Shown here one piece after another: positions 41,354 to 54,018 of a stretch of 64,000 nt of DNA; positions within the stretch are counted from its first letter, which is position 1, and each line of letters begins with the position of its first letter. The stretch comes from Flavobacteriaceae bacterium (GTDB taxonomy: Bacteria; Bacteroidota; Bacteroidia; Flavobacteriales; Flavobacteriaceae), in NCBI GenBank assembly GCA_028284005.1, contig JANQSO010000014.1, forward strand, positions 62,001-126,000, written 5' to 3'. The translations under genes and the position numbers were made by a program. Under the pieces are notes generated by a model. It did no database searches. It was given only the letters and a program-made list of their open reading frames with translations, and was not told the DNA's origin.

Positions 41354-41892
41354 ATTTCAATAGATTCAAAATAGAGTGATTTTAATTTTTTAATAGCACG
41401 GTGCGTTTTAGTTTTTACAGCTATTTCCGTACTTCCGATAACTTCGGCAATTTGCTTGTATTTCATGCCCTGAAACCTGCTCATTACTAATAATTCACGG
41501 TCTTTAACAGGTAGTTTCTTCAGTACATGTTTTAATCGCTGTATATTTTCGTTATTGTCTTCATCATCTGCTTCACTTATTTCTGTTACTTTTTCCAAAC
41601 CTACATCGCCTTGAAGCCTTTCTTTCTGTAATTGCTTAAAATAATCTGAACTGATATTTCTGGCAATCTGAAAGATCCAGGAAGCAAATTTTCCTCCTTT
41701 GTATGAATTTCTGTAACGAATCGCCTTGTAAAAGGTGTTTTGTATCAGATCTTCACAAACAGACTGGTTCTGTATCATTTGAAAGAAAAAATTATAGATC
41801 CATTGATGGTATCTTTCAAAAAGGATGGTCATAGAATCTAAGTTTCCTTTGGAGACTTCCTGCATTAATGCTTCGTCGGTTGGTTTTTCCAA
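41350..41892 (-). CDS. ECF sigma-70 family RNA polymerase sigma factor
   Basis: 180-aa group IV sigma factor. Region 2 is at about 20-90 (FERYHQWIYNFFFQMIQN, CEDLIQNTFYKAIRYRNSY, FASWIFQIARNISSDYFK) and region 4 at about 120-175 (LPVKDRELLVMSRFQGMKYKQ, IAEVIGSTEIAVKTKTHRAI). The TTG at 41892 is the only start giving the full N-terminus; ATG at codon 10 would truncate it. It is cotranscribed with the anti-sigma factor and the DUF4097 pair and divergent from the DUF547 gene. Confidence 0.93.
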   Translation of the reverse strand: MEKPTDEALMQEVSKGNLDSMTILFERYHQWIYNFFFQMIQNQSVCEDLIQNTFYKAIRYRNSYKGGKFASWIFQIARNISSDYFKQLQKERLQGDVGLEKVTEISEADDEDNNENIQRLKHVLKKLPVKDRELLVMSRFQGMKYKQIAEVIGSTEIAVKTKTHRAIKKLKSLYFESIEI

Positions 41893-42014
41893 TGTTGCTA
41901 TGGTTATTTTCTGTTATTGTAGACCTTTGTAAAACAAAAAGGTTACATTTTATTTATTCATTTTATGAAATTAATGAAAATAGTATTCGACAAAGCATCC
42001 ATAGTATAGAATTA

Positions 42015-42824
42015 ATGAGATCTATTATACCGTTTTTCAGCTTTTTAATGATTGCTTTTGTATTGCAAAGTTGCAGTTTGTTTTCTGCTGCAGGTTTAAC
42101 AAGCCAGGGACAGCCTGTCAAAGAAGTGAATGGCAATCTTGTTTCAACTACAGCAAATTCTGCCGTAAATATCGACCATTCGCAATGGGACCGGTTACTA
42201 AAAAAGTATGTAGATGAGGAAGGGCTGGTCAATTACAAGGGATTTCAAAAAGACCGCGAAGCATTAGACCAATATTTGTTGCTACTGTCATCTCAGAAAC
42301 CGACAGACAATTGGAGTGTTCAGGAGTTATTGGCATATTACATAAACACTTATAATGCGTATACTGTTGACCTGATTTTGGACCATTATCCTTTAAAAAG
42401 TATTAAAGACATTGGTGGGGCATGGACCAAGGGAATTGTTCCTATTGGAGGCAGTAAGATTTCTTTAGGCGGAATAGAAAATGGGATCCTTAGAAAAATG
42501 GGTGAACCCCGTATTCACTTTGCCATTAACTGCGCGTCTTTTTCCTGCCCAAAATTATTCAATGAAGCTTTTACCGCTGCAGAGATCAATGAACAGCTGG
42601 ATGCAGTTACTAAAGAATTTATAAATAGTGATAAAAATGATATCTCTGCAAAAAACCCAAAGTTGTCTTCTATTTTCAATTGGTATAAAAAAGATTATTT
42701 AGTGGATGGTGAACCAAATGTTATTAGATATATTAATCAATACAGTAAAACGAAAATAGCTCCGGACGCTACTCTGGATTATTTGGAGTATGACTGGAAC
42801 CTCAACGAACAAAAGTTCAAGTAA
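42015..42824 (+). CDS. DUF547 lipoprotein beside the arsenosugar genes
   Basis: Start chosen at 42015, where MRSIIPFFSFLMIAFVLQSC gives a lipoprotein signal with the lipid Cys at residue 20; an earlier reading from 41868 overlaps the sigma-factor gene and adds a non-conserved stretch. The DUF547 domain follows (WDRLLKKYVDEEGLVNYKGF, LLAYYINTYNAYTVDLI, IHFAINCASFSCPKLFN, IFNWYKKDYL). The conserved NCAS/SC segment is a likely active or binding site; the enzymatic role of DUF547 is unknown. Its place before an arsenosugar-type glycosyltransferase links it with that pathway by context only. Confidence 0.87.
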   Translation: MRSIIPFFSFLMIAFVLQSCSLFSAAGLTSQGQPVKEVNGNLVSTTANSAVNIDHSQWDRLLKKYVDEEGLVNYKGFQKDREALDQYLLLLSSQKPTDNWSVQELLAYYINTYNAYTVDLILDHYPLKSIKDIGGAWTKGIVPIGGSKISLGGIENGILRKMGEPRIHFAINCASFSCPKLFNEAFTAAEINEQLDAVTKEFINSDKNDISAKNPKLSSIFNWYKKDYLVDGEPNVIRYINQYSKTKIAPDATLDYLEYDWNLNEQKFK

Positions 42825-43589: not shown

Positions 43590-44609
43590 TCACTTACTTG
43601 TCTTGTACCTCTCCCTTATAATTGCTTCTACTGGTTTATTTTGTGGAGTAAACCTGGAATTGTCGGGCCCCCCGGATGCTTCATGATCTATATACCACTT
43701 CCAGAGAAAGCCTCCGGCAAACCACTCCTGGTTCCAAACCTCTTCAAATAAAACCCGTGTTAGATTAGTTTGGGCCTCAATATTAACTTCTGTCATACTT
43801 CTGTCGCTTTTCCATGGTTCTTTTCCGGCAAAATCAACACTTCGGTAACCATATTCGGCAAATAATATTTTCTTGTTGTACGTTGTTGCTATGGTCTGCA
43901 TTTCCCTTTTCCATTTTTGCCATCCGCTTTGTGCTTCTTCAGCAGTAGGGGTTTTACTTTCAGAAACAGGAAAATATGCGTCAACTCCTATATAATCCAG
44001 TTCTTTCCAAAAAGGAACATGTTTGTATTCATCCCAATTGGCAGCGTAAGTAAGCTTTCCTTTATAGATGTTTTTAATTTCGGTAATAAGCACCTCCCAA
44101 TATTCCGGGCGGTTTGTAATAAACTGTTCCAGTTCTGTCCCAATGCAAAATATGGACACTTTCATCTCTTCTGCCAATTGCGCAAATTCGAGAATAAAAT
44201 TCCTGTAAGATTCTTCAAGGGTTTTCCAGTCTTTTTCGGTATTCATTTTTAGATAGCCTGTAAATTCTCCGCGCCATATCCAAATTTGAGGCTTCAGCAT
44301 TACATTGATATTATTTTCATGTAGTTTACGGATATACTGTTGTGCTCCATCTTTGGTTTCTCCATACCATTGTCTTTCAATATTGAAAACAATCTCAGGA
44401 TCGTTTAAATTTCTGGTAAATCCAAAGGGCATTACGGAAGCGTAATTTGCGTGTATATTTAAAACCGGCGTTACGTTCTCTTGTTGAACTTCATGAGGGG
44501 AAGCCACAAAACTCACCCCGTTGATCTTTGGGTCATCCGGACTCATTTGAGCACAGCTGCTTAAAACAATTACGAAAAAGAGAAATAAGAGAAGTTGGAG
44601 TCTATGCAT
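43590..44609 (-). CDS. GH113-like TIM-barrel glycoside hydrolase lipoprotein
   Basis: Lipoprotein signal (LLLFLFFVIVLSSC at about residues 5-19), then a TIM-barrel of family-113 type: GVSFVASPHEV, ASVMPFGFTRN, NINVMLKPQIWIWRGEF, the acid/base Glu in FCIGTELEQF (about 157) and the nucleophile Glu in ILFAEYGYRS, with YIGVDAYFP between. GH113 members are beta-mannanases. The gene converges on the glycosyltransferase (2-base gap). Such GH113-like genes recur with TIGR04283 transferases; the substrate may be a surface glycan rather than plant mannan. Confidence 0.83.
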   Translation of the reverse strand: MHRLQLLLFLFFVIVLSSCAQMSPDDPKINGVSFVASPHEVQQENVTPVLNIHANYASVMPFGFTRNLNDPEIVFNIERQWYGETKDGAQQYIRKLHENNINVMLKPQIWIWRGEFTGYLKMNTEKDWKTLEESYRNFILEFAQLAEEMKVSIFCIGTELEQFITNRPEYWEVLITEIKNIYKGKLTYAANWDEYKHVPFWKELDYIGVDAYFPVSESKTPTAEEAQSGWQKWKREMQTIATTYNKKILFAEYGYRSVDFAGKEPWKSDRSMTEVNIEAQTNLTRVLFEEVWNQEWFAGGFLWKWYIDHEASGGPDNSRFTPQNKPVEAIIRERYKTSK

Positions 44610-44714: not shown

Positions 44715-44957
44715 TTATTGTTTAGAGGCAATCATACTATGAAAGCTTGTGTTTAGCGATATTTTTTTAGCAGAATGTAAAAAGTTGGTGAATGTTTCCG
44801 GATTTGAACGTATCGAGCTGGAATACACTTTTTCATTAGAGGCATATTTTCCAAAGAATGCATCAGTTACATTAAAAAATGTTTGAGGAGTTTGTGAAAA
44901 GATAGTTGTTATACTTGCAGTAAGTAATAACATTGTCGTTAAAAAAAGTCTTTTCAT
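44715..44957 (-). pseudogene. Truncated DUF547 gene remnant
   Basis: An 80-codon frame with a good signal peptide (MKRLFLTTMLLLTASITTIF) and then only the first part of a DUF547 domain: FFNVTDAFFGKYASNEKVYS aligns with the start of the nearby intact DUF547 protein (WDRLLKKYVDEEGLVNY). It then loses the family pattern and stops after HSMIASKQ, where an intact gene would have about 160 more residues. The downstream 105 bases do not continue it. It may be a dead duplicate or a short secreted protein. Confidence 0.5.
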
Positions 44958-45122: not shown

Positions 45123-46400
45123 TTATTCTATAGACTCGAGAGTAGCGGACAAGTAATTCAATAAAGGTTCTTGAAACAAAATTCCTTCCTGTGCTAAGAC
45201 TTTAATATAAGACTGATACATTTGTTGCTGCGCCTTCAACTCTTCGATCTTCTTCTTGTGCTGCAATATTTTCAGTTTTAATAATAACAATGGTGATGCG
45301 CCCTCCATTCCTTTATAAGTTTCCAGCAACGAAGCAACACTACTTTCATCTATCTGTTTTTTAAGACTTTGGTAATTTGTTATTGCTCTCTTAAATTCAT
45401 TTTGAGCTAATTTTTGGTCGGCATCAATCTTATATAATGTTTCGTTTAATTTACTTTCTTTCCTTAGTTTTTCGAAATAATAATCTCCTTTATTCTTTCT
45501 GGAATTTCCAAAGAAAGGTAAATTAATTCCTAACCCTAGTGAGAATTCTTCCTCAAAGATTACAGTATTCCTTCCTCCATACTTTGCCTGAAAATAGTCA
45601 AATATTTGATTGGATCTGGCAGTACTAAGCCGCATTTCCCTTTCCAGTGTCTTTAGTTTTAATTTCTGAAGTGATACTTCTAGATTTTCTGTCTTTAATG
45701 AAGAAATTGATGTTGCTGCAACTTGTTCCGGCTTAATGAGGTCATTAGAGTTAATTTCCATTGAATCGTCTTCTCCTTTATTGAAAAAGAGTAGAAGCAA
45801 TGATTGTTTAATGGATCTTTCTTCATTTAGATCGTTTAGTTTTGAATTAACCGAAAACAAAGATTCTTCAGTATCGATCAGGTCTTTTACATCAAAGTCC
45901 GTATCATATACCTTTTGGCCCAACAAATGCAATTTGTCTTTTAATTGAAGTTGACTTTCGGTATACAACTCAATTAATTTATCTATAAAAATATAGTCAA
46001 CCAGCAGTAGATACCTGTTTTCTAATTCTTCATTAAAATTAATTTGGTTTTCAATTCTAACTTCTTCAATTTTATTTTGATATACCTTTTTTTGTCTTGA
46101 AATGGCACTTAAACTGTTTGGTTTAATTCTTATAGTATATTCTTGCCTGTTTAAAAAGAAATCTCTTGTTTCGGTCCTTAATTGAACATCTCTTAGTAAG
46201 GGCAGGTTATAATTATAGTCCTCTAAAAAGGATAGGTTTGCCGAATCTGATTCTATCTGACGAGATTCCTGGGCAGCACGCAAAAAAGAAGTTGTGGTAA
46301 TTACATCTTGCGCATGGAGTGTAGGCATAAAGAAGCAACTCGCCCATAAGGTTAGTAAGAGTATTTTATTGCTAAACAATTTTGAAGCTGGTATTAGCAT
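45123..46400 (-). CDS. TolC-like outer-membrane efflux/secretion factor
   Basis: Outer-membrane factor (OMF/TolC family). Start at 46400 gives a signal peptide (about 1-30, ending MPTLHAQ). Long alpha-helical coiled-coil segments follow (KLIELYTESQLQLKDKLHLL, VSLQKLKLKTLEREMRLSTA, KIDADQKLAQNEFKRAITNY, KKIEELKAQQQMYQSYIKVL) with two beta-strand regions, as expected for TolC-like trimers. 425 aa. Last gene of the operon with the HlyD-like and DUF4956 genes. The sequence diverges from standard AcrAB-type OMFs. Confidence 0.8.
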   Translation of the reverse strand: MLIPASKLFSNKILLLTLWASCFFMPTLHAQDVITTTSFLRAAQESRQIESDSANLSFLEDYNYNLPLLRDVQLRTETRDFFLNRQEYTIRIKPNSLSAISRQKKVYQNKIEEVRIENQINFNEELENRYLLLVDYIFIDKLIELYTESQLQLKDKLHLLGQKVYDTDFDVKDLIDTEESLFSVNSKLNDLNEERSIKQSLLLLFFNKGEDDSMEINSNDLIKPEQVAATSISSLKTENLEVSLQKLKLKTLEREMRLSTARSNQIFDYFQAKYGGRNTVIFEEEFSLGLGINLPFFGNSRKNKGDYYFEKLRKESKLNETLYKIDADQKLAQNEFKRAITNYQSLKKQIDESSVASLLETYKGMEGASPLLLLKLKILQHKKKIEELKAQQQMYQSYIKVLAQEGILFQEPLLNYLSATLESIE

Positions 46401-46416
46401 AAAGACTTCCTTAACG

Positions 46417-47424
46417 TTAACTTTTTAAATTTAGGATCACTTTCTCTTTTTGAAGAAATGGATTGTCCGGTGGAATCTCTATTATAATTTCCCTTCCAAA
46501 TGTTTTAAGTTCCTTTATTTTACGTAACCTGGGAGGTATTTCAACAATGCGGGACCCCAATGTTTTTACAACTCCCACATTTTGAATCTCGGGGCGAGAA
46601 CTGGAAGAGATATCTATGGTATCATTGATATTTACCTTTAACAGTAGGTCTTCATGTATATACCCTACGACCAGTGTCGGACTTTCTTCATAAAATGTTA
46701 TTAAAGTTGAGAAAGAAGATATTATTTCATCTTCTTTACAATGAATATTACCTATCAGGCCGTCTGTAGGAGCTACTATGGTTTGTTTCTCCTTTTTTTG
46801 CTGGTAATACTCTAATTCTTCCTCAAGTCCTTTTATTCTGGACAAAAGAGGGTTGTTATCTGCAAAGCGTTCACTCTTCAAATTATTGATCTCGGTTGTG
46901 ATAATATTTCTTGTAAAAGTTAATTCCTTTTTTAAGGCTTCTATTTTTAAAAATAACGGATTCTTAATTTCTCCTTCCTGAGTATTTTCTGTAGTAATAC
47001 TCTGGATATTTTCTGCTAGTTTTTTATTCCTTTCTATTTCTGCATGATATTCATCTATTTGAGATTGGATGCTGGTAGTTTTTTCATTCAATTCTATATT
47101 ATATTGACTTATTCTCCAGTCCAGATCCGTCTTCCACAACTGGTATTTGGTTTGTAGTTCTTCAATACTGTATTGCGTATTACTGATCTTTACCGGTAAA
47201 CTGGGTGAAAGAACATCCAATAATACGGTTCCTTTTTTAACCTTTTGGCCTGTAGTAACATAGATCTTCTCTACTTCGACAGGGTTTTCCATGTTGATCT
47301 CGGTTTCTTTATTTTCGGCAAAACCATAAAATGTCACAGAAGTATCTAACTTCACAACAAGGGAGAGACCTAGCAGCACAATGACCGCAAATGCAGCTAC
47401 GTATACAAGATTAAATTTTTTCAT
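46417..47424 (-). CDS. HlyD-like periplasmic adaptor (membrane-fusion protein)
   Basis: One N-terminal membrane helix (about 7-24) then a lipoyl-like half motif (VEVEKIYVTTGQKVKKGTVLL), a long central coiled coil (about 75-220; ISQYNIELNEKTTSIQSQID) and the returning lipoyl/beta-barrel half (APTDGLIGNIHCKEDEIIS, LVVGYIHEDLLLKVNINDTI). It bridges an inner-membrane component with the OMF encoded directly downstream (16-base gap) and overlaps the DUF4956 gene by 14 bases. No ABC or MFS transporter is in the operon, so the DUF4956 protein or a distant partner would provide the inner-membrane part. Confidence 0.82.
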   Translation of the reverse strand: MKKFNLVYVAAFAVIVLLGLSLVVKLDTSVTFYGFAENKETEINMENPVEVEKIYVTTGQKVKKGTVLLDVLSPSLPVKISNTQYSIEELQTKYQLWKTDLDWRISQYNIELNEKTTSIQSQIDEYHAEIERNKKLAENIQSITTENTQEGEIKNPLFLKIEALKKELTFTRNIITTEINNLKSERFADNNPLLSRIKGLEEELEYYQQKKEKQTIVAPTDGLIGNIHCKEDEIISSFSTLITFYEESPTLVVGYIHEDLLLKVNINDTIDISSSSRPEIQNVGVVKTLGSRIVEIPPRLRKIKELKTFGREIIIEIPPDNPFLQKEKVILNLKS

Positions 47425-48124
47425 AATCGTTTCTAAAATTTAATTTTACATTTAATAACCCTAATTGCTTAGTTAGTGCGTTCACCAATGTAGTAGCTTT
47501 ATTTCTATCTGTTGTATGAATTTTATATTCAAAAACAACAACTTCCAATATTTCTTGTTCTCTTTTTTTATGATTGACATTATATCTGATCATTTCCACT
47601 TCTTTGCAGTAATCGTTCAATACCGCATCAATTTTATCTCTTAGATCTGTACCTATAACATCCTTGTTAGGCATTTCAAACTGTAAATTACTAATGATGC
47701 CTTTATTTTTATGGATAGGAGAAAAGTGTATTAATAACACCACCAGGCAAAACCCTACAGTTCCCACAACCGAAATAGATATACCATACACTCCCGTAGC
47801 AATTCCCACGGCAATAGAAGTAAACATGAATACCATATTTCTTGGGTTTCTTAACGTAGTTCTAAATCTAATAATGGCCAATGCTCCAAGCATTCCCAAA
47901 CCACGGGCCAAGCTATCTCCAATAGCTTGCATAACTGTAGCAACAGGAATTGAAATTAAAATTAAAGATTGAATGAAGTATCGCGGCCTTTCGATCCCTT
48001 TTGATGTCTTATCGTAAGTTAATGCGATCAAAGAAGATAATCCAAAAGACAGTAATGCAATTACAATAACATTAAAAATACTGGAGCCTTCCAGGTTATT
48101 GTTAAAATTAGAAAAGTCAAACAT
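47411..48124 (-). CDS. DUF4956 membrane protein
   Basis: About four to five membrane helices in the first 140 residues (VIVIALLSFGLSSLIALTYD, LGMLGALAIIRFRTTLRNPR, NMVFMFTSIAVGIATGVYGI, VGTVGFCLVVLLIHF), followed by a cytoplasmic alpha/beta C-terminal domain. The ARGLGMLGALAIIRFRT segment is the DUF4956 hallmark. The family is often encoded with CotH kinases and VTC-domain polyphosphate polymerases; here two CotH genes precede it but no VTC gene is seen. 237 aa. Its overlap with the HlyD gene suggests it acts with the export proteins. Confidence 0.88.
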   Translation of the reverse strand: MFDFSNFNNNLEGSSIFNVIVIALLSFGLSSLIALTYDKTSKGIERPRYFIQSLILISIPVATVMQAIGDSLARGLGMLGALAIIRFRTTLRNPRNMVFMFTSIAVGIATGVYGISISVVGTVGFCLVVLLIHFSPIHKNKGIISNLQFEMPNKDVIGTDLRDKIDAVLNDYCKEVEMIRYNVNHKKREQEILEVVVFEYKIHTTDRNKATTLVNALTKQLGLLNVKLNFRNDYEKI

Positions 48125-48200
48125 ATGGTGTATTTAATACCTAATTAGCAAAATTGTTTAAAACCTTAAGAGTGCCGAAAAAAAATTAGCTCTAACCAAC

Positions 48201-50162
48201 TTATTCAACAATGATCTTTTTTGAAATGTTATAGCTCTCACTTATAAGCCTTACAACATACATTCCCGAATTAAGTTTTGAAACGTCGATATCTACTTGA
48301 GAATGTGCATTTTCGATATTGTAGATCTCTCTTCCCAAAATGTCGTTAATTACAATTCTTGATGCAGCCTCATCGGCAAAATCTATTTTTAAGCTGGTAC
48401 TCGCAGGATTAGGATATATGCTTATCCCGTTAATAGAATTTTCACTAATGCCTAATACAGTAGCATTTTCTGCATTGAAAGTAACATTCACAATTGCAAA
48501 ATCTCCTGTTCCATTTGGCACTCTGGATAAGCTTTGATTTTCGGCTTGTTCATCTGTATAACTAACACTGTCTATTATTGTACCGTCCAGATACGATAAA
48601 ATGATTTCATCACCGTCCTTATCCAAATTGAATTTTGTGTGAAGGCCATCTTGCTGTGGATCTTTGTCTGCCCATACAATCAAATAACCATTGGCAGGAA
48701 TAGTAACATCCGGAAATTCCCATTTGTGAATAAAGCTTTCACTGTCACTTAAGAAGTAATTGTTCAAACTTATAGGATTGTTAGTATTATTATACAACTC
48801 GATCCAGTCATCGTTTTCGTTATCCTGGTCTACCCACTGACTTCCAGGAGCATTACTGGCCATAAATTCATTGATAACAACATCCTGAAACCCTATGGGA
48901 AGATCCAAAGGAGTACAAGTATGACTCTGGTTAGCAATATCAGCCACAACAACAGGAGTTCTATCCTCAATGAACTTTTTAAACCCTTGAACAGGCCCAT
49001 TATTTATGGGTTGTCCATTCCAGGTATCTCCGTTTATTGATGCCTCAACATCAATCAAAGAGAAAAAATTATTGGTAGCAGTATTCCAGTCATCATCTAT
49101 GAGATCCAGCTGCGCATCCAGTTTTGGATTTAATCTAGCTTCCGTAAAATTAACCTCCATGATCTCACACATGTAGTTTAAGTACCTAACCCTGAATTCC
49201 GGTACTTGAAAAATACGGTGAATTAATACCTTACTGGCATTATTCAAAATAATATTGAAATCCCCAAAACCGTTTTGTTGCCTGTCAAAAGCAAAATTAT
49301 AGTCCCAGGGCAGCCAATGTATCTTATCGGTCTTAGGCTCGTGGTACAAATACCAGTTTCTTCCGTGTTCTATATACGAATCCCAATTGTTTGTCAAAAG
49401 GTCAATCGCTAAGATCCTCAGGTATTCATCCAGGTCAAATATACTTTCAATATCATCCTTGAATTCAGTGTTAGTAGAATTATTGATAAAATCCAGAAAC
49501 TCTATAAATTTTGTCCAGTCATCGTCATCTTCATTGGTTTGCAATTCAAAAGGATAACTGTTGGGATTAGTACCCAGCCAGTTTAGATCTGAGTTTCCTT
49601 TATTCTTCCATAAATTACCATCATTATCTGCAAAGTTTCGTTTTAGATATCTTTTATCTATTTGCTCAATGATAGCGTAAATACCCCAGTATTCATCTTG
49701 GATATAAACCTTTACATGTGAAACTCTTGGAGAAGGGATACCATGCTGTCTAAACATATCATAGACTATTTTATCTTTGATAACAGCCGGGTCACCCTGA
49801 CCATTTGCAAGATTGATTTTCCTCACTCCATCATATTCCTGATCATCAACAAATTTTCCAAAATTAATCTTGAGAGGCTTTTTGGTGGTATTTGTGAAAA
49901 AATTCGATGAAAACCCTTTTTGACGCACCCCCACATTTTCTATAACATTGCCATCTACTTCTACAGTAACGGAATGATATGGAACTTCTGTACCATTATT
50001 CAGGAAATTTTGAAAATCATTTTCCAATAACTGCCAGAAATTGTTTTCGGTAGAATTAATTCTTATTTCATGTAAATAACTATCATCAAATAAAGAATAC
50101 CCTCCCTGTGCTTGTATTTGAAGGCTTACCAATAAAAAAGCCACTAAAAAAATTTGTTTCAT
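48201..50162 (-). CDS. Secreted CotH-kinase protein with lamin-tail domain and T9SS tail
   Basis: Signal peptide (about 1-18) and a CotH protein-kinase-like domain at about 25-400: GVRQKG (78-83), YWGIYAIIEQIDKRY (158-172) with the conserved Glu, and the catalytic-type WLPWDYNFAFD (283-293). A lamin-tail domain follows at about 425-535 (DVVINEFMASNAPGS, DDWIELYNNT, NGYLIVWADKDPQ), and a Por type IX sorting domain ends the protein (ISIYPNPASTSLKIDFADE, NISKKIIVE). CotH of spore formers phosphorylates coat proteins; surface-exposed T9SS members like this have unknown targets. 653 aa. Confidence 0.9.
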   Translation of the reverse strand: MKQIFLVAFLLVSLQIQAQGGYSLFDDSYLHEIRINSTENNFWQLLENDFQNFLNNGTEVPYHSVTVEVDGNVIENVGVRQKGFSSNFFTNTTKKPLKINFGKFVDDQEYDGVRKINLANGQGDPAVIKDKIVYDMFRQHGIPSPRVSHVKVYIQDEYWGIYAIIEQIDKRYLKRNFADNDGNLWKNKGNSDLNWLGTNPNSYPFELQTNEDDDDWTKFIEFLDFINNSTNTEFKDDIESIFDLDEYLRILAIDLLTNNWDSYIEHGRNWYLYHEPKTDKIHWLPWDYNFAFDRQQNGFGDFNIILNNASKVLIHRIFQVPEFRVRYLNYMCEIMEVNFTEARLNPKLDAQLDLIDDDWNTATNNFFSLIDVEASINGDTWNGQPINNGPVQGFKKFIEDRTPVVVADIANQSHTCTPLDLPIGFQDVVINEFMASNAPGSQWVDQDNENDDWIELYNNTNNPISLNNYFLSDSESFIHKWEFPDVTIPANGYLIVWADKDPQQDGLHTKFNLDKDGDEIILSYLDGTIIDSVSYTDEQAENQSLSRVPNGTGDFAIVNVTFNAENATVLGISENSINGISIYPNPASTSLKIDFADEAASRIVINDILGREIYNIENAHSQVDIDVSKLNSGMYVVRLISESYNISKKIIVE

Positions 50163-50211
50163 AAAATAGTATTAAATGATATTGTTAGCATAAGCCCTCT
50201 TCACTAATAAT

Positions 50212-50965
50212 CTACTCGACAATGAGCTTTTGAGCATGCAAAGTAATTCCTTCGTCCGTAGTGATCTTTAAAATATATAGACCGGAAGTAAAGTTTCCTC
50301 TTTGTAGTTCAAACTTATTGGAGTCTGTTTCCATCGATACTATCTCTCTGCCTAGCAGGTCATATACCGCTAACTTCAAAGGATATGTATTGTTGGAGAT
50401 CAGTATTGTTGCTGCTGTCTTCATAGGGTTGGGGAACACAGAGATACTGATATTCTCAAAATCGTTTACACCCAGTGAACAATCTTTATTAGCAGCTCCA
50501 GGAGTACCGTGTTCCGATCCTGTCACTGCACACGCGTTCCAACTGGACGCCAGAGCATTGTCCAATCCCGGGTCAATAAGTTCTAAGGTAGGGCCATTTC
50601 CATCTGCAGCAGTTGGCCAGGGAGCTTCATCGTCATATTCTACAGAATCCACAAGCACATCGTTATCATCAAATAAGCGAATTAATTCTCCACCTCCACT
50701 AAGTCCGAAAGTAAAATCTCCCAGGATAGGGCTGACAGCAGGGAAAAGCGCCTGGAAATCTGTTAAAGACTGAGCCAAAACCAGATAAGAACCGGGTTGC
50801 ATCGTTGTTCCGTTTGGAATAACAAATTCATGTAAGTCATCATTATCCTTAAATACCCAGTTAGAGATATTTACGGCGTTACTTCCATTATTATATAGTT
50901 CTATCCAATCTTTAGTTTCAAAATCTGGTGCGTCTTTATAATTTATTTCATTAATAACGATCCCT
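50212..50965 (-). repeat. Duplicated LTD plus sorting-tail segment, copy 2
   Basis: This 3' part of the large CotH gene is highly similar to the whole stand-alone LTD gene (53209-54018). Shared words include INEINYKDA, DFETKDWIELYNNG, FGLSGGGELIRLFDDN and LVDSVEYDDEAPWPT. It is a recent intralocus duplication. Confidence 0.85.
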
Positions 50966-53175
50966 GTTCCTCCACTTGCAGCGAAAACTGCTTTTATATT
51001 ATCACTTTGTGTGAGCAATAAAGAGATGTCTACCGCATTTGGGTCCGGGATAACATGATTGTCAATTTCCCAATGATCAAATATATAGTTTGAATTACTT
51101 TGTACTGCTTCTATAAGCATTTCGATACCGCCATGGTATGACCCGGTCCAGGGATAGTCCCCATAATCAATTGTTATGGAATTGAATTTTATTTGACCTG
51201 CATTGGCCGGTTCAACTTCCAAAGTAACATCATAAGGTCCGGTTAACGTATAACAGCTATTTAATCCGTCCGGAAGATAATCGATTCTATCACTTATAAA
51301 ATCCTTGATCTTTTGGACATTCCCTTGCCACTCATTCATATTTCCTCCCCATCGGTTAAAGTGCTGAGGCATCTCCGGTGTAATAGAGTTTTCTATTCCT
51401 TCCAAAACACTAAGCATTTCATCTTCTCTAAAAGCGGTATTCATCAGGTCCATATATCTAGTTACGTAATACTGTCTAAACTCATCATTCTCCAAAAGTT
51501 TATTCAATAATACAATATGTTCTTCCGGGTCTGCTGTGATCCCTTCAGGATAGCATGGCTCGGCATCCGCATTTTCATTTGGTACACCTGTATAATTTAT
51601 ATAGTGATTGAATGTAGCGTCTTCATCCCACAATACATACCCCCATTTTAAATGGCTTCCGGCTGGGTCTAATCCCCGCCACCAAGAGGTGTTCCAGTTG
51701 ATCCAATCTGTACAAACTACAAAAGAGTTTATCAAAATATAATCAACGAGGCTGGTAACGTCAATCTCATTTGCAACGTGCTGGTAATTTGCCTGAACCG
51801 ATAGATCATTGGTGATGGCAAAAGTGTGTATATCTTCCCAATCATCAAATGCGGCCTGACCGCCATATTGGGCCCAGGTATTACCCCAGTTCATTAAATA
51901 TTGAACATTATATTTATCCTGATCGTAGTAGAACTTCGTATAATCCGAATCGCTCACCTTTTCTCTTATGGAGTAAACTCCCCAATATTGGCCATTGGCA
52001 TAAACAACACAACGCTCACCTCTTCGCATATCTACATTCAATTTATTTTTATTTGCCAATTTTTGAATAAACACATCTCTTGTATGAGCACTTGAGTCTA
52101 TACCGGGATAATTATCATCTCCTGAAGCTCTTATAATTATTCTCTGAAAACCCTCTCGTTCGGATAAACTCAGTAACTTTTCATTGATAGCATCATGATA
52201 GCCCATTTCATCTCTGGCTATATAATCAAAGCTCCTTTGATCAAACTGCCAAGAATCCTGTCCATGTTTGTTGTATTCTCCATAGCCAAAATCTTTTCTC
52301 TCACCATCGGCATCAAAATATTCAATAGTACCATGAGGCCTTAAAGTCTGGTTTCCATTAAGTAATGTCGTTAACTGGCTTGCCGAAGTAGATAAGACCG
52401 GCAATGTATGATTTTCATTGATGAAGTATGTATTAAAAGTCATGAAACTAGGTAGTATCTCAGGATTATTGGATAGTACAATGGCTTTTACTATCTGGGT
52501 GTTTGCAATAGTCAAAGCTCCTGTATACTGTGTAGACCCGCTAGTGGGTAGGTTTCCGTTTACGGTATAATGTATGGTAGAATTTGGTTCTGCTGTAGTG
52601 ATCGCTAAACTTTGACTTCCATTATAAAATCCCGCGTCTATACTCATTTCCGGCCCTTGTGCATAAGCGGTATAACTCGTACCGGTATTGGCTGCCCCTC
52701 TGGTAGGGTTTGTAAAAACCTTCCAGGTAGAAGAACCGTTAGGGCTTCTTCCCATTGAGTGTTCTAATTGGGTCTTTTGTATTTCAAAATCATTGATGAC
52801 GGTACCATTTGTATCTGAAAAAATAACATGTTCCGGAGTGTTCCTGGTCTGTTTTAACTTGAAACTGGTATGATAGTTACCTCCGGAGGCTTCATCTCGT
52901 CCGGAACACCAGAACACCAGATATCCATTTGCAGGAATAACAGTTCCTGCAGGGATTGCCCATTTTGTAGGGTTGGAAGGGTTATCACTTAAATGGTATC
53001 CCGCTAAATCAACGCTCGATCCACCTGTATTATGGAGCTCGATCCAGTCTTCGGTTTTTCCATAGTTATCCAAATATCCTGTTAAATTGGCAACAGAGTA
53101 TTCATTAATTATTACCTGACCGGATACAGGTATTAAGAACATAGAAAGTACGAAAAGGAGGAAGTATTTTTTCAT
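50212..53175 (-). CDS. Large secreted CotH/LTD multidomain protein with T9SS tail
   Basis: 987-aa surface protein. In order: signal peptide (1-19), a lamin-tail domain (about 20-130), a chitobiase/hexosaminidase C-terminal-type Ig domain (about 175-240: TTAEPNSTIHYTVNGNLPTS), a CotH kinase domain (about 260-660, with YWGVYSIREKVSD and WGYVLWDEDATFNHY), a divergent InlB B-repeat-like segment (about 680-770, SIDYG-x-YPWTGS-like region: ITIDYGDYPWTGSYHGG), a second lamin-tail domain (about 780-890) and a Por sorting domain (VFPNPMKTAATILIS...AQKLIVE). Both CotH catalytic regions keep their acidic residues. Translated just before the second CotH gene, 49 bases apart. Confidence 0.9.
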   Translation of the reverse strand: MKKYFLLFVLSMFLIPVSGQVIINEYSVANLTGYLDNYGKTEDWIELHNTGGSSVDLAGYHLSDNPSNPTKWAIPAGTVIPANGYLVFWCSGRDEASGGNYHTSFKLKQTRNTPEHVIFSDTNGTVINDFEIQKTQLEHSMGRSPNGSSTWKVFTNPTRGAANTGTSYTAYAQGPEMSIDAGFYNGSQSLAITTAEPNSTIHYTVNGNLPTSGSTQYTGALTIANTQIVKAIVLSNNPEILPSFMTFNTYFINENHTLPVLSTSASQLTTLLNGNQTLRPHGTIEYFDADGERKDFGYGEYNKHGQDSWQFDQRSFDYIARDEMGYHDAINEKLLSLSEREGFQRIIIRASGDDNYPGIDSSAHTRDVFIQKLANKNKLNVDMRRGERCVVYANGQYWGVYSIREKVSDSDYTKFYYDQDKYNVQYLMNWGNTWAQYGGQAAFDDWEDIHTFAITNDLSVQANYQHVANEIDVTSLVDYILINSFVVCTDWINWNTSWWRGLDPAGSHLKWGYVLWDEDATFNHYINYTGVPNENADAEPCYPEGITADPEEHIVLLNKLLENDEFRQYYVTRYMDLMNTAFREDEMLSVLEGIENSITPEMPQHFNRWGGNMNEWQGNVQKIKDFISDRIDYLPDGLNSCYTLTGPYDVTLEVEPANAGQIKFNSITIDYGDYPWTGSYHGGIEMLIEAVQSNSNYIFDHWEIDNHVIPDPNAVDISLLLTQSDNIKAVFAASGGTGIVINEINYKDAPDFETKDWIELYNNGSNAVNISNWVFKDNDDLHEFVIPNGTTMQPGSYLVLAQSLTDFQALFPAVSPILGDFTFGLSGGGELIRLFDDNDVLVDSVEYDDEAPWPTAADGNGPTLELIDPGLDNALASSWNACAVTGSEHGTPGAANKDCSLGVNDFENISISVFPNPMKTAATILISNNTYPLKLAVYDLLGREIVSMETDSNKFELQRGNFTSGLYILKITTDEGITLHAQKLIVE

Positions 53176-53208
53176 TTTGTTGGCATTTTAATTAATTTTT
53201 CATTCTTA

Positions 53209-54018
53209 CTACTTGACAATTAGTCTTTGAACCTGTAAAACAGATTCATTGCCAGTAGTTAATTTTAAGATATATACTCCTGTATTTAAATTCTCTTTTT
53301 CAAGAATGAATTTATTGGAATTTGTTTTCATCATTTTAATTTCTCTTCCAAGCATATCATAAATGGTTAGACTTAAAGGAGAAGTAGTATTGGAAACAGT
53401 AATAGTGGTCTTGGCAACCATAGGGTTAGGATAAACAGAAACAACGCTTTCATTAAAGTCGTTTACTCCCAGTACAGAAGTACTGTTGACCTCTCCCGGG
53501 GTTCCGTGCTCACCATCAGGTAAAATAGAAGCCTTCCAACTGGAAGCCAAGGCATTGTCCAAATTAGGATTGGTAAGCTCTAAAGTGGGGCCGTTTCCAT
53601 CCGGTTCTGTAGGCCATGGGGCTTCATCGTCATATTCTACAGAATCTACCAATACATTATTATCATCAAACAAACGTATCAATTCTCCTCCTCCGCTAAG
53701 TCCAAAGGTGAAGTCTCCCAAAACCGGGGATACTCCGGGAAATAATGCTTGAAAATCTGCTAAGGTTTGTACCAAAACCAGGTAAGAGCCAGCTGCCATG
53801 GTAGTGCCGTTCGGGATTACAAATTCATGAAGGTCATCATCATCTTTAAAAACCCAATTGGAGATATCAACAGTATTTGCACCATTATTATAAAGTTCTA
53901 TCCAATCTTTAGTTTCAAAATCTATTGCATCCTTATAATTAATTTCATTAATAACAATTTGTCCATTTAAAGTGAGACCGGACAAAGAGATACAAAGAAG
54001 AAGTAAGAAATGTTTCAT
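53209..54018 (-). CDS. Secreted lamin-tail-domain protein with T9SS sorting tail
   Basis: Signal peptide (about 1-19), one LTD (about 20-185: IVINEINYKDAIDFETKDW, ISNWVFKDDDDLHEFVIPNG, PWPTEPDGNGPTLEL) and a Por sorting domain (VVSVYPNPMVAKTTITVSN...VQRLIVK). The protein is almost the same as the C-terminal third of the next gene's product. It is the first gene of the minus-strand unit of two CotH proteins, DUF4956, adaptor and TolC-like factor. LTDs in secreted bacterial proteins are thought to mediate binding or surface retention; no enzymatic motif is seen. Confidence 0.88.
   Translation of the reverse strand: MKHFLLLLCISLSGLTLNGQIVINEINYKDAIDFETKDWIELYNNGANTVDISNWVFKDDDDLHEFVIPNGTTMAAGSYLVLVQTLADFQALFPGVSPVLGDFTFGLSGGGELIRLFDDNNVLVDSVEYDDEAPWPTEPDGNGPTLELTNPNLDNALASSWKASILPDGEHGTPGEVNSTSVLGVNDFNESVVSVYPNPMVAKTTITVSNTTSPLSLTIYDMLGREIKMMKTNSNKFILEKENLNTGVYILKLTTGNESVLQVQRLIVK

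Follow-up and report, generated by a model that had tools for sequence, protein, structure and literature searches.

Organization of the Locus

The locus considered here lies within a 64,000-nucleotide stretch of DNA (the window) from the genome of a marine bacterium, Altibacter (Flavobacteriaceae), and a near-identical locus was found in Altibacter. The six genes are tightly packed on the minus strand, and all six open reading frames stand where the original prediction had placed them. The first (53209..54018) encodes an LTD protein (PF00932, 1e-18) with a T9SS type A tail (PF18962, 6.5e-12). It is followed by CotH2 (50212..53175), of 987 amino acids, with the arrangement LTD, CHB_HEX_C_1, CotH kinase domain, LTD and T9SS tail, and by CotH1 (48201..50162), of 653 amino acids, with a CotH kinase domain (PF08757, 5.9e-62), LTD and T9SS tail. 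Next come a DUF4956 membrane protein with about five transmembrane segments and a C-terminal domain (47411..48124; DUF4956, 1.3e-14), a HlyD-family periplasmic adaptor with an N-terminal transmembrane anchor (46417..47424; PF16576 (HlyD_D23), 1.3e-8) and, from its predicted structure, a TolC-fold outer-membrane factor (OMF; 45123..46400).

The intergenic gaps, in the order LTD, CotH2, CotH1, DUF4956, HlyD, OMF, are 33, 49, 76, -14 and 16 bp, the last 14 bp of DUF4956 being also the first of HlyD. On the 5' side, 265 bp separate the operon from a divergent FAD oxidoreductase gene, and on the 3' side 165 bp separate it from an 80-aa open reading frame. The original prediction named a separate promoter as a sign of independent units; in a sequence scan, promoter-like and terminator-like sites within the operon showed no excess, standing at or below the number expected from shuffling. 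The identical six-gene order occurs in two more flavobacterial loci (L082 and L083) and is not a matter of chance, since it has been kept there despite DUF4956 proteins only about 65% identical to that of the window.

CotH and LTD Surface Proteins

Both CotH proteins carry the CotH domain (PF08757) at scores of 210.5 and 116.3 bits, against a curated cut-off of 23.8 (E-values of 6e-62 and 3e-33 in the Pfam/NCBIfam scan), and CotH1 matches the structure of spore coat protein H (PDB 5jd9, E-value 1.1e-21). The catalytic residues of Bacillus subtilis CotH are D228 and D251 (PMC7821199). Their equivalents, located in the alignment by their 23-residue spacing, are kept in both window proteins, and the two columns hold aspartate in 40 and 43, respectively, of all 45 CotH rows aligned. 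The window proteins resemble the Bacillus spore-coat kinase in their CotH domain and in both catalytic Asp residues, and differ from it in being T9SS-exported LTD proteins of a flavobacterium.

The T9SS tails that had been claimed for the CotH proteins are present, and all three surface proteins have the type A Por_Secre_tail (PF18962/TIGR04183), and the genome encodes the T9SS sortase PorU (1357.7 bits), as expected if the three are T9SS cargo. Such tails presumably bring both CotH proteins to the outer face of the cell, beyond the outer membrane. From their domains and sorting signals, the two are probably kinase-like and extracellular. They are the only CotH proteins of the genome, both encoded within the operon. 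The LTD gene, although present as predicted, proves to duplicate the 3'-terminal part of CotH2: its product is 71% identical to residues 739-987 of CotH2 over 249 residues (72% at the DNA level).

Adaptor and Outer-Membrane Factor

The HlyD protein exceeds the cut-off of PF16576 (34.9 bits against 30), and its best relatives in the PDB are EmrA structures (E-value 1e-10). No family matched the OMF in the Pfam/NCBIfam scan. That the protein might not be TolC-like was rejected on the basis of its AlphaFold model (pLDDT 80). The model combines long helices with two beta hairpins and finds TolC with a Foldseek E-value of 7e-13; superposed on the TolC protomer it gives a Z of 23.1 in VIA (rmsd 5.0, 375 residues aligned). 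A homologue in locus L058 matches OEP (PF02321) at 4e-17. Judged by its model, then, the OMF has a TolC fold but is too divergent in sequence for the Pfam OEP family.

A membrane-anchored adaptor nearest EmrA and a TolC-fold OMF in one operon recall EmrAB-TolC and HlyBD-TolC. The window differs from both in what the original prediction rightly called a missing pump: there is no ABC, MFS or RND gene among the operon genes, and the candidate inner-membrane component is DUF4956.

DUF4956 as a Remote Relative of MgtC

The window's genome has one copy of DUF4956. Its AlphaFold model is poor (pLDDT 57) and too weak for a fold search, and profile comparison was therefore used. The DUF4956 profile aligned with that of MgtC over its full length, including the C-terminal domain (hhalign probability 96%, E-value 3.7e-9; 94% and 96% when repeated with two other alignments), while the negative controls, HlyD and the polytopic membrane family DUF6580, gave at most 0.2% (0.1-0.2% for DUF6580). 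The MgtC/SapB family PF02308 detects one DUF4956 protein directly (G061, 4e-5), and the window's protein scores 15.9 bits, under the curated cut-off of 31.4. By these profile comparisons DUF4956 is distantly related to MgtC along its whole length. The genomic partners of DUF4956 (CotH, HlyD, OMF and VTC) are different from those of the MgtC/SapB family. The low-confidence model predicts a C-terminal domain of order beta-alpha-beta-beta-alpha-beta, which I take to be that expected of an ACT-like fold.

The TM2-TM3 motif IGDSLARG (residues 67-76; 47897..47926, minus strand) includes residue 70, which is aspartate in 98/98 members of the DUF4956-HlyD-OMF unit described below and asparagine in 15/15 of the first set of VTC-type genes. 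Aspartate is also found in VTC-less Hymenobacter genes and in two VTC-bearing loci (L193 and L195). That D70 might couple transport to protons is conjecture, and no energy-coupling motif was recognisable in DUF4956. The "LAR" of the same motif was considered as a mark of adaptor-bound DUF4956 and discarded; it is present in Nonomuraea and Paenibacillus, which have no adaptor.

A Conserved DUF4956-HlyD-OMF Unit

In all of the first 21 loci with DUF4956 of the window's type, DUF4956, HlyD and OMF are contiguous and in the same order. A scan of named genomes brought 80 further loci, and in the combined set HlyD adjoins DUF4956 in 99/101 and OMF does too in 95/101, counts that (like the P values) overstate the sample, because the search started from DUF4956 of the window's kind and kinship among the genomes makes them non-independent. 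The exceptions fall mostly at contig ends, with L112 a real one. Gaps within the unit are mostly below 20 bp or the genes overlap. Its hosts within Bacteroidota include Flavobacteriaceae, Saprospiraceae/Lewinellaceae and others, and beyond that phylum Fibrobacterota (L141), Myxococcota (L158), Thermodesulfobacteriota (L159) and Pseudomonadota (Endoriftia, L147). By gene content and order, therefore, the three genes are a conserved unit that recurs in many bacteria, a point beyond what the original prediction contained.

The only families that recur beside the unit across lineages are CotH/LTD (34 proteins) and then VTC (3). In 23/101 loci a CotH gene stands no more than 4 kb away and in the same orientation, where a simple density estimate predicts about 0.5, and CotH/LTD adjacency is about 40-fold above expectation, spanning Flavobacteriaceae, Saprospiraceae, two further families (f5 and f31), Fibrobacterota and Myxococcota. 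About 76 of the 101 units have no CotH within that distance, among them all 17 loci of family f38, whose units sit beside YceI, DUF6580 and SDR genes. The adaptor and OMF, which had been described as a set dedicated to the CotH proteins, are thus dedicated to DUF4956, their adjacency to CotH being limited to the 23 loci. Lack of conservation with CotH had been named as grounds for abandoning the idea; it is seen at the level of gene neighbourhood and not at that of the genome, for CotH is encoded somewhere in 22/22 unit-bearing genomes tested. Among 395 Bacteroidota genomes, CotH occurs in 62/64 with DUF4956 (20/20 with the window's type and 42/44 with other types), compared with 135/395 overall, figures whose P values overstate confidence since the genomes are mutually related.

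A divergent CotH hidden upstream of the stand-alone Saprospiraceae units was also considered. The genes examined there look like those of HD-domain, regulator-propeller or T9SS proteins, and no family is common to these 5' genes.

VTC and Other Lineages of DUF4956

The original prediction noted the absence of a VTC polyphosphate polymerase and held that one is usual at known CotH-DUF4956 loci. Both statements are borne out: no PF09359 was found in the window's whole genome, and among the 395 Bacteroidota genomes VTC is present in 42/44 that have DUF4956 outside the unit, as against 1/20 with the unit. That the adaptor and OMF stand in place of VTC holds as a trend and not as a strict rule, because CotH, DUF4956, HlyD, OMF and VTC occur together in L058 (in the order CotH-DUF4956-HlyD-OMF-VTC-LTD), L141 and L158. 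The same three loci rule out mutual exclusivity.

On a first pass, VTC-type loci appeared to have no adaptor, a view since dropped. The gene of about 355 amino acids 5' of VTC encodes a remote HlyD: compared with the HlyD of the unit it has an hhalign probability of 97.7% and an E-value of 1.7e-12, with controls at 0.2-0.9%, and PF13437 matches the one in L066 at 4.5e-6. This adaptor was found in all 15 of the first VTC-type loci by a profile built from 13 of them. By this profile evidence, most Bacteroidota DUF4956 genes of the VTC type come with a divergent HlyD adaptor. A third clade of DUF4956 has the gene order VTC-DUF4956-HlyD; a fourth, of order DUF4956-CotH-VTC, has no adaptor, and none was found in three Gram-positive loci (L218, L219 and L221).

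Hymenobacter has HlyD-DUF4956-TolC without VTC, its TolC matching OEP at 5e-41. Its DUF4956 nests in the HlyD-VTC-DUF4956 clade (the trees being quick searches with long branches), and the combination of DUF4956 with adaptor and OMF therefore arose at least twice. The VTC-less cassette is carried by L202 and by a plasmid of Hymenobacter volaticus (L220), where a T9SS protein is encoded after it. Bacteroidota loci of order DUF4956-CotH-VTC (L076-L079, L197, L199 and L212) contain very divergent CotH proteins missed by Pfam (two tested; the L076-L079 set against CotH, hhalign 94%).

It is already known that CotH, a polyphosphate polymerase and DUF4956 are clustered beside pel operons in Gram-positive bacteria (PMC7112168) and that Clostridium perfringens has a VTC/CotH cluster, which includes a glycosyltransferase (PMC2879425). 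The window resembles the Gram-positive CotH-VTC-DUF4956(-DUF4832) cluster (PMC7112168; Planococcus plasmid L218) in having CotH and DUF4956 in one operon. It differs in its lack of VTC, its HlyD adaptor and TolC-fold OMF, the LTD domains and T9SS tails of its CotH proteins, and its Gram-negative host. No report of CotH combined with HlyD and TolC was found in the open-access literature, which leaves aside preprints and most subscription journals. Three papers among 5.39 million of that literature mention DUF4956, and two of these list it just as an adjacent or a regulated gene.

Proposed Conduit and Its Cargo

I consider it probable, from gene order and homology, that DUF4956 is the inner-membrane component of a dedicated tripartite conduit. 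DUF4956 would lie in the inner membrane as pump or gate, HlyD would cross the periplasm, and the TolC-fold OMF would lie in the outer membrane, the three forming one complex. The strongest argument for DUF4956 as inner-membrane partner is that its combination with adaptor and OMF arose at least twice, the second time in Hymenobacter without VTC. The place given to DUF4956 by the original prediction fits these observations.

The operon would make two CotH-family proteins exported by T9SS to the outer surface, with an LTD companion, and the conduit would serve these extracellular enzymes. ATP is scarce outside the outer membrane, and VTC makes polyphosphate from ATP, as established for the eukaryotic family. 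Since CotH is extracellular and lacks ATP there, and since the other partner that DUF4956 can have is a polyphosphate polymerase, my first guess for the cargo would be a phosphoryl donor or a polyphosphate-like polyanion, a suggestion I hold only tentatively and rate below even chance. In VTC-bearing systems, VTC would push polymer through DUF4956. In the window, DUF4956 might instead take a cytosolic substrate (polyphosphate made by PPK1, which the genome encodes, a nucleotide or some other anion), which the OMF would then release at the cell surface, completing the path. In the simplest scheme common to these systems, DUF4956 would export a phosphate-related substance, supplied by VTC in the systems that have it, along a path lengthened in diderms by an adaptor and sometimes by an OMF. 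Support for the conduit is moderate; what it carries is a guess.

About as doubtful is the possibility that no phosphoryl donor is moved, and that what leaves through the conduit is a component of the matrix (an organic polymer, a peptide or something else) on which the CotH and LTD proteins act at the surface. Such proteins with T9SS tails suit matrix assembly, the Gram-positive cluster adjoins the Pel polysaccharide operon (PMC7112168), the C. perfringens cluster has its glycosyltransferase (PMC2879425), and in L103 and L141 the gene before CotH is for an ASST-like surface protein. Beside DUF4956-HlyD-OMF, however, no gene for a polymer synthase or any other biosynthetic enzyme turns up repeatedly, and the enzyme that does recur across DUF4956 systems is the polyphosphate polymerase. 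Surface phosphorylation or matrix assembly, the role originally proposed from sequence, is plausible for the system.

It is rather unlikely that DUF4956 is an MgtC-like regulator or assembly factor, with HlyD and OMF using an ABC, MFS or RND pump encoded elsewhere. DUF4956 is small and has no known energy motif, and the studied member of the MgtC family promotes phosphate uptake and not export (PMC6658541). Nevertheless, no pump family recurs among the neighbours of about 100 loci, and DUF4956 is the constant partner through several gene orders and two independent assemblies with adaptor and OMF. MgtC, the nearest named relative of DUF4956, is not known as an established export pump. That an exporter unrelated to the CotH proteins shares their operon by chance, as the many units without a nearby CotH and those of f38 beside YceI, DUF6580 and SDR might suggest, is unlikely in view of the 40-fold excess of CotH/LTD adjacency across lineages (Fibrobacterota and Myxococcota included), the presence of CotH in every unit genome tested, and the six-gene order conserved in three flavobacterial loci.

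If DUF4956 is indeed the inner-membrane part of the conduit, then the part of a tripartite exporter that sits in the inner membrane need not belong to the ABC, MFS or RND families. The adaptor/OMF partners and MgtC homology provide a first mechanistic lead on DUF4956. The three-gene channel may supply something that extracellular CotH enzymes need. The source of ATP for spore CotH has been called an unanswered question (PMC7821199), and for the wider matter of how extracellular kinases obtain a phosphoryl donor the locus offers a compact genetic handle. The full proposal, that DUF4956 proteins are MgtC-superfamily translocators of the inner membrane which, with HlyD (and in two lineages TolC-type OMFs), constitute a new tripartite class bringing a phosphoryl donor, such as polyphosphate, to extracellular CotH, is a long reach and, taken whole, improbable at present.

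Additional Genes near the Unit

The Myxococcota adaptor (L158:10680-12683; 668 aa) has a weak C-terminal match to PF06977 (E-value 0.0018), and secreted SdiA-regulated/phytase-like propellers of the same family are encoded after DUF4956 in some VTC-type loci (the +1 genes of L061, L068 and L072), a possible link by fusion. Related surface proteins are encoded directly 5' of CotH in a Saprospiraceae locus (L103, gene 4) and a Chitinivibrionales locus (L141:6300-7742), the latter copy being arylsulfotransferase-like.

In the window, the 80-aa open reading frame 3' of the operon (44715-44957, minus strand) encodes an exported product that looks like the truncated remnant of a DUF547 protein. Its homologue at the same place in L083 has 238 amino acids and a DUF547 domain, and a second DUF547 gene lies at 41868-42824 (plus strand) of the window. 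A gene for a GH113-like glycoside hydrolase (43590-44609, minus strand) also lies just 3' of the operon, and in L082 and L083 too the operon is followed by a homologue.
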